Positions 4,293-36,694 of a stretch of DNA of 36,694 nt are shown here, piece after piece. The stretch's first letter is position 1, and each line of letters opens with the position of its first letter. Origin of the DNA: a virus. The DNA is taken from positions 1-36,694 of IMG/VR virus record IMGVR_UViG_3300037245_001014. One strand, 5' to 3'. The notes below the pieces were generated by a model that saw nothing but the letters and a program-made list of their open reading frames with translations, made no database searches and was not told the origin of the DNA. The translations under genes and the position numbers were made by a program.

Positions 4293-4676
4293 CTAATCGT
4301 TTCTTTCTCCCTGTGATGAAGTTGGCGCTTCATGTCCACTTCCTGCTTGACCTAGCATAGTCATAATATGAGCAATCACCTCAGTAGTTTGTCTCTTAAC
4401 TCCATCATTATCGTCCCATTCTCTTGTTTCAAGCCTACCTTCTATATAGACTTGCTTCCCCTTGGAAAGATATTCTCCGCAAATTTCCCCCAACTTACCC
4501 CATGCCGTTATTTTATGCCACTCTGTTTTCTCTTCCTTATTGCCAGTATCTTTGTTAGTCCACTTTTCAGATGTAGCGATACTGAAAGATGCCACTGCCT
4601 GACCAGATTTAGTATATCTTACCTCCGGATCTCTTCCAAGATTACCAACTAATATAACCTTATTTACTCCAGCCAT
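4293..4676 (-). CDS. ssb: Single-stranded DNA-binding protein
   Basis: 127 aa. Classic OB-fold opening [20 protein letters not shown], then SIATSEKW, then [23 protein letters not shown] and [17 protein letters not shown]. The acidic tail is short and lacks the usual DDDIPF tip, ending SSQGERND, so interaction with host SSB partners may be altered. It overlaps the ERF stop codon (TAATG). It protects ssDNA during phage replication and annealing. ssDNA is also the form in which attC sites fold. Confidence 0.95.
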
Positions 4677-5305
4677 TATTTTAACTCCTTTACTTTATTA
4701 AGATATTCAGTCATCACTTTCCCTTTATCCGCACCAAGCGAATCAATAGCAGACTGATTTTCTTTTTTCCATTTATGTGCTGATTCTTTCGTTGTTAGTG
4801 CTCGTATTGCTATAGAAAATACTTCTATTGAAGCGTCTACTTTTACCCCCTCTTTTTTATAACCAGCTTCCCATGTATGATCTTTTTTCTTATCAAGATC
4901 TTCTTTCTCTGGCTTCATTGTGTCAGCATCTTTAGTGTCATCAATAGCAAATAGGCCATTTAAAGCATACTTCCTGGCATAGCTTGATGTTGCCCCTGTT
5001 ATCTGTGAATCATCCATGCCTTTACGATTCTCGGCCTCTCTAGCCCATCCTGTTACAGAAACCATAGAATCATCTTCAATGCAAGTTAATGTTGCTAATG
5101 CCTGAACATATACTCTAGCACCTACTTCTTTTACCGTATCAGATACAAGCAAAACAGTTCCATGTTTTTTACAGATAGGCTTAGAGGCTTCTACTATATC
5201 CTCACAAGATCTATAATTGTATTTACCGAAACTGTTAAATTGATTTTTTGGAGCTTTCAGTTCTTCTTGTATATCTGATAATTTTTTATAAATCAATGAA
5301 CTCAT
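4676..5305 (-). CDS. erf: ERF-family single-strand annealing protein
   Basis: 209 aa. ERF superfamily signatures: [22 protein letters not shown] near residues 28-49, then VYVQALATL, and [21 protein letters not shown] with a following DDTKDADT. These annealases promote recombination and concatemer formation, usually with SSB, which follows directly. Strong AAAGGAGG ribosome-binding site. Confidence 0.92.
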
Positions 5306-5821: not shown

Positions 5822-6205
5822 TTTTAGACGCAATTACCCTTTTCTCCATGACCTATAGTCACCGCCCATGTAAAGCGTTAAGATACTCATTTGTCTCATT
5901 CCAACAATCAAAGCGTTTGGAATACCTAAGTTGCTCACATGATGCAAAAAAGGCCATGACCCGCTATATTTTACCATTGTCATGGTGCAAGTTGTCAGGG
6001 GAGACAGTGCCTGCTTTTGTTGTTCCATTCTCTTATCTACCCGAAGGCGGTACAGAAAAGACCTGTTGAAACTGTACCCTTTAAACGCGAAAAAGCCTCG
6101 CAAGATATTCAGGGTATCTTTTGAGGCTTTAAAGTTTAAGCCTTTACGGCAAAAACCTTTTTGCTTATCGCCAGTCCCTGAAACTGTTATGTGTCTTGCT
6201 ATGAA
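5822..6205 (-). ncRNA. Hairpin-rich leader with terminator/antiterminator geometry
   Basis: About 380 nt between a strong promoter and the gene at 5802, with no convincing coding sequence. Hairpins: 5898-5904/5917-5923, 5954-5960/5979-5985, 6049-6055/6072-6078 (7 bp each, perfect); 6092-6099/6123-6130 (8 bp, plus 6-bp inner stem 6102-6107/6115-6120) followed on the minus strand by TTTTT; and 6149-6164. The 3' partner is contested: 6124-6129 can pair instead with 6138-6143. This is an attenuator-like switch. A 133-aa open frame crosses the region but lacks a ribosome-binding site. Confidence 0.6.
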
Positions 6206-6211
6206 GTATAC

Positions 6212-6240
6212 ATTATTACTTATATCAAAGAGCATGTCAA
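6212..6240 (-). promoter_or_regulatory. Strong sigma70-type promoter for leader, ERF and SSB
   Basis: Minus-strand TTGACA (6235-6240), 17-nt spacer, AATAAT (6212-6217); a 16-nt spacing gives TAATAA. It sits immediately after the ATPase stop codon. It probably drives the leader RNA, ERF and SSB, and by read-through the cassette array. Confidence 0.75.
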
Positions 6241-11999: not shown

Positions 12000-12700
12000 T
12001 AATATTCCTCCATTCTACGTCTGAAAATTTGAACTCCTGCTGTTATCGGATACTGAACTCCCGCACCACCGTTCCAATCTGCGGCAACTTCGCCTCCTGC
12101 CGGATTGCCTATTATCGTCACTCCACCATCTGTCAATACTCCATCCCAAAAAGCAGGAGCATCTAAATTTCCAATATATCTTGCTGTAGGACTGTCTCCA
12201 TCTTGTCCAAAGGCAATGGCTCCACCAGAATATTTTACAGTTGTAGTACTGGACATATTAAATATGCCTCTTAAAATATTATCAATAAACATCTTGAAGA
12301 CATCGCCATCAAAAGTGCAAATTACCCGATGCCATGATCCATCATTGTATGTTGGTACAGATGTAGTTAGAGCCAAATCACTATTTACCCCAAATATAAA
12401 ACCTAATATTTCCCCACCCGTAAGAATTTGAATGCCGTAACCATTTCCCCTTTTCCTTAATAGTACTTTTGTTGAACCAGATGTTGACGTATTAAACCAT
12501 GTTGCAAAAGTAATTAAATTAGGTTGCAAGTTTACAGGGTCACCCAAAGATATAAAATCATCACCATCAAAAGCCGCTGAATGACTGCCTAAGTGTTTCG
12601 TAGTCGCGTCATATATAACGCCCGTATCAGATCCATCGTTGCCATCGACCTTGTCTATACTATCACCGTCAAAGTGATATGCTGAAATTAAATTAGCCAT
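11999..12700 (-). CDS. LamG/concanavalin-like tail protein
   Basis: 233 aa. Begins MANLISAYHFDGDSIDKVDG, then SAAFDGDDFISLGD, TFATWFNT, and SWHRVICTFDGDVFKMFIDN: the strand pattern of laminin-G/concanavalin-like carbohydrate-binding domains (~residues 5-200). A Gly/Ala-rich C-terminus follows. Probably a glycan-binding part of the adhesion device. Gene order places it with the fibre proteins. Confidence 0.8.
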   Translation of the reverse strand: MANLISAYHFDGDSIDKVDGNDGSDTGVIYDATTKHLGSHSAAFDGDDFISLGDPVNLQPNLITFATWFNTSTSGSTKVLLRKRGNGYGIQILTGGEILGFIFGVNSDLALTTSVPTYNDGSWHRVICTFDGDVFKMFIDNILRGIFNMSSTTTVKYSGGAIAFGQDGDSPTARYIGNLDAPAFWDGVLTDGGVTIIGNPAGGEVAADWNGGAGVQYPITAGVQIFRRRMEEY

Positions 12701-18538: not shown

Positions 18539-18824
18539 CGACTACGCTCCTGATAAGGGTGAGGTATTCCATGATTAAATATGGCTGTTCTAATCTCCCT
18601 CCGCCATATGGGAGGGTTCTATCATGCACAAACCACTCGTAAGCATCAAAGACTTGATGATATTCATGGAGATAAACAACGGGGCAAGCATAATCAATTA
18701 TCCCCTCTATTTTCTCCCAGGGCTCCGATTCTATGCACCCGCCCGAAGGCATGCCCCCCTTATCAGAGCGGGGACATCTTTTACAGCTTACGCCTTCTTT
18801 GTACGCGATTGACGCGAAGATGAT
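18522..18824 (-). CDS. C-terminal extension of tail assembly chaperone (-1 frameshift product, T-like)
   Basis: Open in the -1 frame relative to the gene at 18788-19168, entered at the nine-A run. It would add about 100 residues, giving a G-T fusion near 215 aa. The extension contains CKRC then GGMPSGGCIESEPWEKI, with four Cys, and ends two residues after VVGGKRN-like sequence. An internal ATG (18752) exists but has no Shine-Dalgarno. This arrangement is the norm for siphophage G/GT chaperones. Confidence 0.8.
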   Translation of the reverse strand: MIFASIAYKEGVSCKRCPRSDKGGMPSGGCIESEPWEKIEGIIDYACPVVYLHEYHQVFDAYEWFVHDRTLPYGGGRLEQPYLIMEYLTLIRSVVGGKRN

Positions 18825-19168
18825 TTTTTTTTAGTCTCACCTTCAACAAGTAAACCGACTACCATATCAAATATAATATTGAGCGTTTCAATAGTTTCCA
18901 TATCAGAAATATCAGCACAATCAGCAACCATAGCAGGATCAAATATCTCCTCTGCTACTTCAAGTCTATTTATCATATCTCGAAGTGTATAAAAGACACA
19001 TTCCATCTTGATTTTAACGAGCCTAGCGGTATCATCAGCCTTTACAGCGTGCTGCATATCTACTTGATACCCAAGCAAGGCCGCTTGGTTTAAAGGCGTG
19101 ACAGGCTTAAATGTCACCTTTACGCTGCCCTTCTCTACTGATATTTCCTTACTTTCTAAAAACTTCAT
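18788..19168 (-). CDS. Tail assembly chaperone (G-like)
   Basis: 126 aa, acidic and helical, between the tail tube and the tape measure as expected for lambda G-type chaperones. Begins MKFLESKEISVEKGSVKVTF. It ends after a Lys-rich KKKSSSRQSRTKKA, and the codons AAA AAA AAA at 18832-18824 form the slip site. It coats the tape measure during tail assembly. Confidence 0.85.
   Translation of the reverse strand: MKFLESKEISVEKGSVKVTFKPVTPLNQAALLGYQVDMQHAVKADDTARLVKIKMECVFYTLRDMINRLEVAEEIFDPAMVADCADISDMETIETLNIIFDMVVGLLVEGETKKKSSSRQSRTKKA
18824..18832 (-). promoter_or_regulatory. Programmed -1 frameshift slippery site (A9)
   Basis: Nine consecutive A on the minus strand, read as three Lys codons (residues 113-115). 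After a -1 shift the frame stays open for 100 codons to 18522. A stable downstream hairpin is not obvious; the site relies on the homopolymer. Confidence 0.8.
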
Positions 19169-31174: not shown

Positions 31175-32452
31175 TTAATTATAAGTATCCATTATATCGC
31201 TAAATTTAGTGTATTCCGGTGTCCAGTTCAGTTTAACTATTCCTTTCGGTCCTCCTCTATGTTTTGCAAATATAGCCTCTATGACATCTTCAGGTTCTTT
31301 AGTATCTAATGAATGCGGATGATGAGTAAATATGACTACATCAGCATCTTGCTCTATCCCTCCTGACTCCCTAAGGTCAGATAGTCTTGGTTTCCTTTTC
31401 TCTTGCTCGCACGCCCTTGATAATTGAGCAAGACATAAAACAGGAACGTTTAAATCTTTACTCATCTTTTTAAAGTTCCGGCTAATCTCTTCTACTTCTT
31501 CCCGTCTATTTAATTTCTTAGAACTTCTAACAAGTTGCAAATAGTCAATAATTACTATATCAAGGCCATGTTTTACCTTATGACGTTTTGCCTTAGTCCA
31601 TATATCCATATCTGTCTGATCTGCTGCATCATCAATGTAAATATCAACTTCTGATAACATGCTACAAGCCTTTTGCATTTTAGGCCAATCAGTATCTTTA
31701 ACATGACCATTCTCTAATAGTTGATTGTTTATCTTTGCTTCACCCGATATCAATCTTATTCCAACTTCTTCATCAGGCATTTCAAGAGAGAAAATAAGAG
31801 CTTTACTTCCTTTCATTCCCCCGCCTATTGCAATGTTGGTAGCCATCGCAGTTTTTCCGGTCCCAGGTCTACCAGCCAAAATATACAATTTCGGCTTAAA
31901 GCCACATACGATTCTATCTATATCTATCAATCCAGATTCAATGCCATTTATGCCTTTATTGCTATAGGCACTTTCTATTTGATTCACAGTCTTATGTAGT
32001 ACTGCTTTGATATGCTTTATATTATCAGTCTTTGAGTAGTTTAAATTCAAAGCTTTATCAATCATTCCAGAACACAATTCTTCAGCATCTACTCCTGAAT
32101 TTATCTGATCTACTAATTCATTTCCGTAAGCTAATATCTGCCTTTTGATATAAAGGTCTTTTATTATACCGGCATACTTAGCCACGAATTTATCAGTAAA
32201 GATTCCATCAGCTAATTCAAAAACATGTATTGGCGATACATTCTTTCCTTTCAGTTCTTCATTAAGAGTCATTAAGTCAATAGGCTGTTGCTCGATATAC
32301 ATATCCTTCATTGCAGTATAGACAATCCCATAAGTTTGAATAGAGAAATATTCCGGCAAAATCTTGTCTACAATATCCAGCATAACAGCATTATTTAAAA
32401 GTATAATACCAAGTAGATCTTTCTCTATCTGTCTGTTAGTAAGTTCAATCAT
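31175..32452 (-). CDS. DnaB-like replicative helicase
   Basis: 425 aa. N-terminal DnaB domain (IEKDLLGIILLNNAVMLDIV), RecA-like core with Walker A GRPGTGKT (194-201), Walker B VIIDYLQLV (~301-309), QLSRACEQEKRKPRLSDLRE with the conserved arginine finger, then SGGIEQDADVVIF. Unwinds DNA at the phage fork. Overlaps the initiator-like gene by 4 nt (ATGA). Confidence 0.93.
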   Translation of the reverse strand: MIELTNRQIEKDLLGIILLNNAVMLDIVDKILPEYFSIQTYGIVYTAMKDMYIEQQPIDLMTLNEELKGKNVSPIHVFELADGIFTDKFVAKYAGIIKDLYIKRQILAYGNELVDQINSGVDAEELCSGMIDKALNLNYSKTDNIKHIKAVLHKTVNQIESAYSNKGINGIESGLIDIDRIVCGFKPKLYILAGRPGTGKTAMATNIAIGGGMKGSKALIFSLEMPDEEVGIRLISGEAKINNQLLENGHVKDTDWPKMQKACSMLSEVDIYIDDAADQTDMDIWTKAKRHKVKHGLDIVIIDYLQLVRSSKKLNRREEVEEISRNFKKMSKDLNVPVLCLAQLSRACEQEKRKPRLSDLRESGGIEQDADVVIFTHHPHSLDTKEPEDVIEAIFAKHRGGPKGIVKLNWTPEYTKFSDIMDTYN

Positions 32453-33087
32453 AATGTTTTGTACTCCGGTTCGTTAGATTGATTTGGCGCCAACCAGTCT
32501 TGATTTTTTAATATAGCTGCATAATGATCTGTATAAGGCTTCCCTTTTTTATTAGGAAGATATGCGCTAAATTTTTCTATAATAGTATTTACATTCGTCT
32601 TAAATTTATCTTTAAGTTTTTCATATTCTTCTTTTTTAAGATAAACATTTTTAAATTCACCATGTATTGTTTTGTCTTTGTCTTTAACCTTATCTTTATC
32701 CTTGTCTTTATCTTTAGCACCTAATAAGGGGCTAATAAGGGGCTTAATTTTATTCTTTTTTAAGATATTAAGAATAGATAAATGAACTCTATTTGAAGGA
32801 TTTAAAGTACCATATTGAAATTCAATAAATGGCCTTATAAACCATTTTTCACCATTAGTCAAAATTTCAATTCTGTTCTCCCCGTTGTTGAAAAATCCAA
32901 GGGCTTCACCTTCATTTATTACGGCATCATTCCCTATATAAAGTTGAGCTACATCAAAATCAACATGCCATATTCCAGCATGATCGCAGTCGTGGCAAAT
33001 AAACTCCCATAGTAATTTATAAGCCGCTGGCATTTGCCGGTAAAATTTCTTTTTATATTTTTCGGTATCTGTAAATCTTTTAGCCAT
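32449..33087 (-). CDS. Replication initiator/helicase-loader-like protein
   Basis: 212 aa from the ATG at 33087, which overlaps the preceding stop as TAATG; further upstream codons are open but not needed. MAKRFTDTEKYKKKFYRQMP, then LLWEFICHDCDHAGIWHVDF resembles N-terminal winged-helix domains of phage replisome organisers. A middle run of KD repeats (KDKDKDKDKVKDKDK) is a flexible linker encoded by 6-nt repeats. The C-terminal part (EKFSAYLPNKKGKPYTDHYA) fits a helicase-binding domain. Directly before DnaB, as expected. Confidence 0.75.
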   Translation of the reverse strand: MAKRFTDTEKYKKKFYRQMPAAYKLLWEFICHDCDHAGIWHVDFDVAQLYIGNDAVINEGEALGFFNNGENRIEILTNGEKWFIRPFIEFQYGTLNPSNRVHLSILNILKKNKIKPLISPLLGAKDKDKDKDKVKDKDKTIHGEFKNVYLKKEEYEKLKDKFKTNVNTIIEKFSAYLPNKKGKPYTDHYAAILKNQDWLAPNQSNEPEYKTL

Positions 33088-34013
33088 TAGAATAAAACCT
33101 CCTGCTTGCCTCTTAATACCCAACTTAAAACTTCTTTATAATTTAATTTATCCATACAGTGATTATATTTTTTAGTATGATGTATCTTCATTCTATCAAA
33201 TCTAGTTTTACCTGTTTCAAATTGGATCCCAAAAAGGCAGTCCATACAACCAGTATGCTTTTCATTATAAGGAGGATCATATATCTCACAATAAGAGATA
33301 TTATTTCCCTCAAGATATCCCCATATATTTTCGCGTGTCCAGAATGATAAAGGATTGCTTTTAGGTGATTTAGAATTAAAGGCATTACACCCTCCATTTC
33401 TTACATAAGCTTCTTTTCTATTCTTACTATCTTCAGCCATAGTGCCTATCAATGGATGCTTACCTGTTTTCCTTTCATATCTTTTAAATGGTTCTTTTTT
33501 TAATATATCACAACATTTTTCAGATATTTTAAAAGGTGCATCTAATAAATATTTCCATTTGTCAGGGATACTTTTTTGTTGTTTTTTGCCAGAGGTAGGA
33601 TTAATACCACCATGAAGCCTTAATTCTTTCTGTAATTCACTCTTAGTATTCCTATAACGTGATATACCCATAGCTACTTGTTTACTCACTACAGGGTAAC
33701 CATATTGTTCTATTACTTGTTCAAATGTTTTTGTTGGTCTAATAGTAACTATATTTTTCTTGGTCTTGACATGCTTTCTAACTTGAGAATATTCTCTACC
33801 AGTATCTACAAAAACCCCTACAGTATTAGGATATATAGACCTAGTTAAATCTAGCAGGACTTCTGAATCAGCCCCACCAGAATAGGCTACATAGATTTCA
33901 CCATCAATATCAGGGTGTTCATAATATTGCTTGATCCTCATTAAGCTTATTTCCATTTTCATTCGTAGAGGATATGGCTGTCTAAGCATTAATTTATATA
34001 ATTGCTCATTCAT
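33087..34013 (-). CDS. PAPS reductase-like (PP-loop) phage protein
   Basis: 308 aa. PP-loop SGGADS (45-50) within IYVAYSGGADSEVLLDL, then VFVDTGREYSQVR and a C-terminal region with CCDILKKEP, GCNAF and GCMDCLFGI. Family members of this kind occur in phages and resemble PAPS/adenylylsulfate reductases and the DndC group, so sulfur or nucleotide activation chemistry is possible. No dnd partner is nearby. Preceded by a promoter and a kissing-loop/terminator leader. Confidence 0.82.
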   Translation of the reverse strand: MNEQLYKLMLRQPYPLRMKMEISLMRIKQYYEHPDIDGEIYVAYSGGADSEVLLDLTRSIYPNTVGVFVDTGREYSQVRKHVKTKKNIVTIRPTKTFEQVIEQYGYPVVSKQVAMGISRYRNTKSELQKELRLHGGINPTSGKKQQKSIPDKWKYLLDAPFKISEKCCDILKKEPFKRYERKTGKHPLIGTMAEDSKNRKEAYVRNGGCNAFNSKSPKSNPLSFWTRENIWGYLEGNNISYCEIYDPPYNEKHTGCMDCLFGIQFETGKTRFDRMKIHHTKKYNHCMDKLNYKEVLSWVLRGKQEVLF

Positions 34014-34136
34014 AATGGCCTTAAAAAACGAAACCCCTAGTCAGAAGATGTCGGCTTCCGAAAAGGGGTTTCAATGCTTGCACTTGGCAAACTTGTATTC
34101 TTATTCAGTCCCGACATGACTGTTGAATTATTATGA
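34014..34136 (-). ncRNA. Structured leader with a kissing loop and terminator hairpin
   Basis: Minus-strand transcript from about 34136. Hairpin 1 (34122-34106) has stem CAGTC/GACTG and a 7-nt loop ATGTCGG. Hairpin 2 (34072-34030) has a 9-bp stem GAAACCCCT/AGGGGTTTC with a 25-nt loop containing CCGACAT (34054-34048), then GTTTTTT. The two loops are perfectly complementary over 7 nt. The T-run and a ribosome-binding site follow directly, so the element could regulate transcription or translation of the PAPS-reductase-like gene. Ligand unknown. Confidence 0.65.
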
Positions 34137-34143
34137 TTCCTAT

Positions 34144-34172
34144 ACTTTACTAAACATCTTTCTTATTGTCAA
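34144..34172 (-). promoter_or_regulatory. Sigma70-type promoter of the PAPS-reductase-like gene
   Basis: Minus-strand TTGACA (34167-34172), 17-nt spacer, TAAAGT (34144-34149). It overlaps the last codons of the upstream gene, giving an internal start point with a ~120-nt leader. Confidence 0.65.
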
Positions 34173-34458
34173 CTTTATTATCATCCAACCATAGCAAAAA
34201 TAATATACAGCATCCGGCATGGGCTAAATGATGTTTCTTGCTTTCAGAATCAAACTTCTCACCACCCCACCATGCCATTAAGTGCCTCATTAACGCCGCA
34301 AAATATCTTTCCCTCGGATTCTCTATACTTTGCCATGTGTTAGATCCGTACTTCTCAGCACCGAATGTCATTATATCAACAATTTGTTTGACCGGCTCCC
34401 ACGGCAATAAGTCCCACATAGGCTTGCCATGATCTTTCTTCTTATCATCTCCCCTCAT
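34150..34458 (-). CDS. dATP/dGTP diphosphohydrolase-like protein (DUF5664 family)
   Basis: 102 aa. The family pattern is clear: KPMWDLLPWEPVKQIVDIM, FGAEKYGSNTW, AALMRHLMAWWGGEKFDSES and HHLAHAGCCILFLL (GA.KYG, RH...GE..D.ES...HLAHA). Related phage proteins lower dATP/dGTP pools. No PurZ or adenine-analogue pathway gene accompanies it here, so the role is probably generic nucleotide control. Confidence 0.78.
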   Translation of the reverse strand: MRGDDKKKDHGKPMWDLLPWEPVKQIVDIMTFGAEKYGSNTWQSIENPRERYFAALMRHLMAWWGGEKFDSESKKHHLAHAGCCILFLLWLDDNKVDNKKDV

Positions 34459-36567: not shown

Positions 36568-36694
36568 CCTCCGTATTAAAGTTTCAGGCTAACAATGCGC
36601 TCCAGCCGACCGCAAACGCTCATTTTATTCGCTAATGCGGCTGCTGACCTTGGTCGTTAAACCCCTTGATAATTCCCGATCTCTAATATGTCTC
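36568..36694. repeat. Terminal direct repeat, right copy
   Basis: Exact copy of 1-127. Collapse it before counting genes or attC sites. Confidence 0.9.
36587..36662 (+). other. attC site, second display of 20-95
   Basis: Same site as 20-95, shown again because the circle was opened here. It follows the start of the DUF7352-like gene and precedes the ASCH gene on the circle. Confidence 0.85.

Follow-up and report, generated by a model that had tools for sequence, protein, structure and literature searches.

Four related phages carry a leader RNA of ~120 nt in which the loop of a first hairpin (H1) is exactly complementary to the apical loop of a downstream terminator-type hairpin (H3). In all eight copies of this module, the loop pair comprises 6-7 bp and is fully Watson-Crick (8/8), and every pair is different. 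The order promoter - H1 - H2 - H3 - U tract, including a middle hairpin H2, is common to the 8 copies; their sequence is hardly conserved and the alignment holds in architecture only. Such leaders suggest that early phage genes are held back by an RNA device of a type not described before. We lean slightly towards a cis-acting promoter-proximal transcription attenuator, used at the head of early operons, in which the kissing contact would act on the terminator.

The window, i.e. the whole stretch of DNA analysed, comprises the 36,694 bases of a phage genome record (IMG/VR IMGVR_UViG_3300037245_001014). It is bordered by a 127-bp direct terminal repeat (1-127 and 36568-36694), which makes a complete genome likely. 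The leader W1 spans 34172-34014 on the minus strand, where the surrounding genes also lie, and is organized as follows:

34144-34172, minus strand: predicted promoter TTGACA-17-TAAAGT, 10/12 consensus matches
34138-34123, minus strand: unpaired 5' segment, beginning near GGAAUCAUAAUAAUUCAA and containing CAUA
34106-34122, minus strand: hairpin H1, CAGTC-ATGTCGG-GACTG, loop at 34117-34111
34076-34092, minus strand: middle hairpin H2, GTTTGC-CAAGT-GCAAGC, with a counterpart in every copy
34030-34072, minus strand: terminator-type hairpin H3, with a 9-bp base, a 7-bp inner stem and a loop complementary to the H1 loop
34014-34029, minus strand: a G, then the U tract (U6, 34028-34023) and an AAGG ribosome-binding site (34022-34019)
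33087-34013, minus strand: PAPS-reductase-domain gene (Pfam PF01507, 308 aa), directly downstream of W1

The linker between H1 and H2 is A+U-rich, and three bases separate H2 from H3. The base of H3 reads GAAACCCCT/AGGGGTTTC in DNA letters (GAAACCCCU/AGGGGUUUC in RNA letters) and carries the inner stem UCGGAAG/CUUCUGA with the 7-nt loop CCGACAT at 34054-34048. The downstream start codon is the ATG at 34013. An earlier note on this DNA had listed a promoter, the H1 loop ATGTCGG, its complement CCGACAT in H3, T6 and a ribosome-binding site, and all of these are present, on the minus strand; its two-hairpin description was correct for H1 and H3 and overlooked H2 (34092-34076). In the minimum-energy fold of W1, the three hairpins are formed and both complementary loops remain unpaired, the free-energy z-score of the leader being -2.9. 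The promoter-like sequence overlaps the end of the upstream gene, which encodes a dATP/dGTP diphosphohydrolase-like protein of 102 aa with the N-terminal domain only (34150-34458). Behind the PAPS gene come a 224-aa gene, probably encoding a replication protein judging by its position, and the DnaB helicase gene (31175-32452).

The closest leader to W1 was found in G001 (IMGVR 3300022542_000228), where an 87% DNA match is confined to the leader and stands before a different gene; conservation between W1 and this copy, G001c1, drops beyond the U tract and the Shine-Dalgarno sequence (SD). The G001c1 loops, AUGUGG(G) and CCCACAU, have retained complementarity despite changes on both sides relative to W1. 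Relatives of the window phage were picked via the large terminase subunit (74-94% identity); they were not found with DnaB as query. A first covariance model, made from W1 and G001c1 only and encoding nested pairs only, led to additional copies in G001, G002 and G003. A loop-aware scan of 1.09 Mb of DNA returned the model-found copies minus G002c, plus a further copy in the window genome (W2), with one likely false match only. G002c has a bulged inner stem, which the loop-aware scan misses and the covariance model detects. In total, the window genome carries two copies, G001 two, G002 three and G003 one, with the following loop pairs:

W1: AUGUCGG/CCGACAU
W2: UUCAGGG/CCCUGAA
G001c1: AUGUGG/CCACAU
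G001c2: GGUGCAA/UUGCACC
G002a: GUAACGG/CCGUUAC
G002b: GGGUCG/CGACCC
G002c: GGUGAG/CUCACC
G003: GUUACGG/CCGUAAC

The 8-copy alignment was laid by hand, with spacers padded with N, a few variable-region bases omitted and the register of the 6-nt loops set manually. In this alignment, 95% of the whole structure is paired and 31/37 pairs have changed on both sides. The kissing helix itself displays 53 Watson-Crick cells out of 53, without any G-U, and both-sided changes at 7/7 positions; its covariation score is 1.000, vs 0.245 +/- 0.075 when shuffled and <=0.13 when slid. G003 H1 and W2 came via a loop criterion and were both left out of a repeat test. In the six copies found without that criterion, 39/39 cells are paired, a value that the true assignment alone reaches among 720 permutations. 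Cross-pairing between loops of different copies does not exceed 4 bp. These are thus loops of stable hairpins that pair with covariation support, as expected of kissing loops. Moreover, in 7 copies the complementary stretch runs up to both loop edges and no further; in G003 it could be prolonged by a single G-U. As the complementarity ends there, stems and kiss can coexist, and the loop-edge limits argue for intact hairpins docked to each other rather than strand exchange.

Chance had been considered unlikely in the earlier note from the single copy. Taken alone, the W1 loop match is only moderately unlikely by chance: in shuffled sequence, pairs of hairpins (stem >=5, loops 6-9) with a 7-base loop match within 200 nt turn up 0.2 times per window on average. 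The homologues are decisive: the loop pairing is certain because they keep it. Once a two-part hairpin with a U tail is required, the shuffled expectation per 129 kb is 0.04 for a 7-base match and 0.24 for a 6-base match, whereas 7 were observed. The loops change compensatorily in the 8 copies, and homologous leaders without such changes, the outcome named in the earlier note as a refutation, were not seen.

W2 occupies 6240-6092 on the minus strand and scores 69 bits with a covariance model:

6212-6240, minus strand: predicted promoter-like sequence TTGACA-17-AATAAT
6172-6186, minus strand: hairpin H1, CAGT-TTCAGGG-ACTG
6134-6156, minus strand: middle hairpin H2, GTTTTTGCCGTAAAGGCTTAAAC
6092-6130, minus strand: terminator-type hairpin H3, loop CCCTGAA, the exact complement of TTCAGGG in H1

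This second copy is located upstream of an Erf-like annealing gene (4676-5305) and SSB. It sits within a mechanical 133-codon ORF (5834-6235), which is probably not a gene. The open frames downstream of W2 (window 6080-5834) and of G001c2 (G001 12425-12650) have in common the pattern SFxRxFLxxLRVDK; the W2 frame gave no Pfam match, and there was no match among named phages.

In all copies, a sigma-70-like promoter is predicted 13-35 nt upstream of H1, with a mean of 10.0/12 consensus matches vs 6.7 for the background. H2 directly precedes H3 everywhere and is mostly of the form GUUU...AAAC/AGAC. The gap between H1 and H3 is 33-41 nt in seven copies and 76 in G003; the two loops, on one strand, are 63-70 nt apart in the copies listed by the scan and 107 in G003. 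An outer H3 stem of 7-10 bp followed by a U-rich tail is found in 8/8 copies, as in intrinsic terminators, so that termination is predicted, with poor U tracts in W2 (TTTTTCGCG) and G002b (TATTTTAATTT). An SD and a start codon lie within 20 nt of the module in 5/8 copies. W2 and G001c2 show no clear gene start over ~250 nt and could be free-standing RNAs.

Three copies (W1, G001c1 and G002a) head replication modules, and four others (W2, G001c2, G002c and G003) are placed ahead of Erf-type annealing proteins. With modules ahead of replication or recombination genes, the element tracks early operons, not a single gene. G001c1 is followed by DnaD-like and DnaC-like genes, and G002a by a PHP-like gene and then another gene, its replication assignment being by position only; downstream of G002b is a 187-aa gene. 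Downstream neighbours among the copies other than W1 and G001c1 include HNH-like, PHP-like and tRNA-Tyr genes, the latter directly behind the G003 module (G003 1352-1438). The gene behind G002a (G002 18814-18880) begins ATG AAA TAA AAA ATT AAT TTA CAC GCT CAT, with an in-frame TAA as third codon, and reads like the start of a PHP domain (HAHTIFSDG); sequencing error, decay or recoding are candidates for this stop.

How could these leaders work? RNA started at the sigma-70-type promoter would fold H1, then H2, then H3, whose apical loop would pair completely (6-7 bp) with the H1 loop, so that the terminator becomes docked on its own leader. By default, docked H3 would form at the U tract and most transcripts, whether from the leader's own promoter or from upstream, would end before the SD and start codon. 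Expression would then require readthrough, a step that transcription rate or a factor of host or phage origin may control. A rough length estimate of our own suggests that the linker, H2 included, would allow H3 to close in the docked state. The kissing partners would drift freely provided that both loops drift together; if so, shape and not sequence is used, and each copy answers to itself only. Promoter activity, termination and the direction of the kissing effect are what we infer from this arrangement, and we judge it somewhat more probable that kissing supports termination than that it opposes it. Two other devices were considered and set aside. A conserved alternative helix, in which the 5' arm of H1 would pair with the 3' portion of H3 (AGUC/GACU for W1), was not retained: some copies show similar extensions, but G002a, G002c and G003 do not. 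A leader peptide, suggested by a 26-codon frame starting at the loop AUG of W1, was rejected because the corresponding G001c1 frame stops after three codons.

The opposite direction, in which H1, H2 and the kissing contact would bind the nascent polymerase so that H3 and later terminators are read through, is unlikely in our estimation, though it has a precedent. The put RNAs of phage HK022 (~70 nt, two stem-loops) suppress terminators without protein, putL lying just downstream of PL; in lambdoid phages, terminators lie ahead of the genes of two early operons, whose expression depends on nut or put control (PMC9378689). Like putL and putR, our leaders are cis RNA hairpins behind early promoters and upstream of recombination and replication genes; their distribution between replication and recombination copies parallels the lambdoid division of labour between two early operons, and the gene sets are those under put/nut control in lambdoid phages. 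Two stem-loops, H1 and H2, stand behind a promoter-like sequence in all copies. Moreover, in predicted folds of truncated transcripts, the two loop strands can form one long-range helix that competes with H3. Such a helix would form while the 3' arm of H3 is still to be transcribed, so that the kiss could also delay H3, and this modelled behaviour would favour an antiterminator-type reading. On the other hand, put RNAs are similar in sequence and target distant terminators, whereas the leader copies, compared among themselves only, drift and are barely conserved; put also has no terminator, while in the leaders one of the two kissing loops is that of the terminator.

Alternatively, each copy could be a free-standing small RNA gene with its own promoter, an RNA of ~120 nt and its own terminator, acting in trans or as a decoy, the proximity of the next gene reflecting only a compact phage genome. 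The conserved part is indeed tightly bounded by promoter and U tract, conservation between W1 and G001c1 falling beyond the U tract and SD, and W2 and G001c2 have no immediate gene. This view, quite unlikely to our mind, has to contend with the 5/8 copies in which an SD and a start codon follow the U tract immediately, and with loops that differ from copy to copy and pair only within their own copy, so that no conserved seed for action in trans is left. In a count of possible trans targets, loop 7-mers occur elsewhere on the coding strand only slightly above uniform expectation. A protective or insulating 5' structure, in which the docked hairpins would make the transcript more stable or shield the operon from transcription arriving from upstream, without regulated readthrough, seems very improbable: between same-strand genes, a terminator would end upstream transcription and the module's own promoter restart it, but the terminator comes after, not before, the new promoter and would stop the new transcript too.

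The earlier note had proposed a riboswitch or an RNA-sensed attenuator controlling a sulfur/nucleotide-activation enzyme. The attenuator layout fits; a riboswitch or protein-binding leader sensing a metabolite of that kind has hardly any probability left. A terminator platform behind a pseudoknotted structure would suit it, and some riboswitch aptamers use loop-loop pairing. The gene contexts already disfavour it, the downstream genes being unrelated between copies. Ligand binding is unlikely since no sequence stretch is conserved across copies, only architecture, and thus no conserved pocket is present. As for the enzyme, the link of the leader to the PAPS gene was rejected: the closest leader precedes a DnaD-like gene in G001, which is without a PAPS gene, and the PAPS-gene relatives inspected (27-50% identity) have no such leader. 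That the element belongs to no known class was borne out, Rfam 15 giving no family at the gathering threshold and, on a short stretch, no match to E 1.

Returning to attenuation, the leaders resemble terminator-type riboswitches and attenuators in having a structured leader, an intrinsic terminator and an SD and gene behind it; they differ by the lack of a conserved ligand pocket, by unrelated downstream genes and by a sequence-free architecture. In phages P4 and P1, operon leaders are subject to RNA-RNA pairing that leads to termination, by an antisense-type RNA in trans, whereas the pairing described here is intramolecular, within the leader. Complete pairing of 6-7-nt hairpin loops also occurs in ColE1 RNA I/RNA II; there, two RNAs from opposite strands meet in trans, whereas the leaders are one transcript with one loop in a terminator. 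The protein Rop recognises kissing complexes of hairpin loops, among them one that has no relation to ColE1 (PMC3127992). Its recognition is thus not tied to a single sequence, and a protein that reads the shape of the leaders can be imagined. More speculatively, and rather doubtfully, they may form a new class of sequence-independent 'barcoded' terminators, each tethered to the leader of its operon through a loop pair of its own, with docking alone setting early-gene transcription. A Rop-like protein or the polymerase might then sense the docking, and the loops might diverge so that several switches within a single genome avoid cross-talk.

A loop contact between a leader hairpin and a terminator hairpin, conserved by covariation while sequences drift, is absent from Rfam and from the literature searched, most subscription papers being outside its scope. 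If the contact controls termination, it would amount to a compact RNA switch that can be programmed and whose specificity can be exchanged, and would explain replication and recombination timing without a recognised antiterminator. The eight natural loop variants make loop-swap tests straightforward. The known distribution is narrow. Exact-pattern scans of viral contigs gave matches in G001 only, and no DNA similarity at the W1 leader to named phages was found. With a second covariance model, R2, no convincing member appeared in three more record sets (50, 50 and 16; mostly phage, including ten named phages) or in 299 bacterial genomes of one phylum. The best non-family match, a plain terminator of an Acinetobacter phage, reached 26 bits, while true members score 38-96 bits.

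By eye, the motif CAUA, often CAUAG, is present in the unpaired 5' segment of every copy except G002b (7/8); it could be a second conserved feature.
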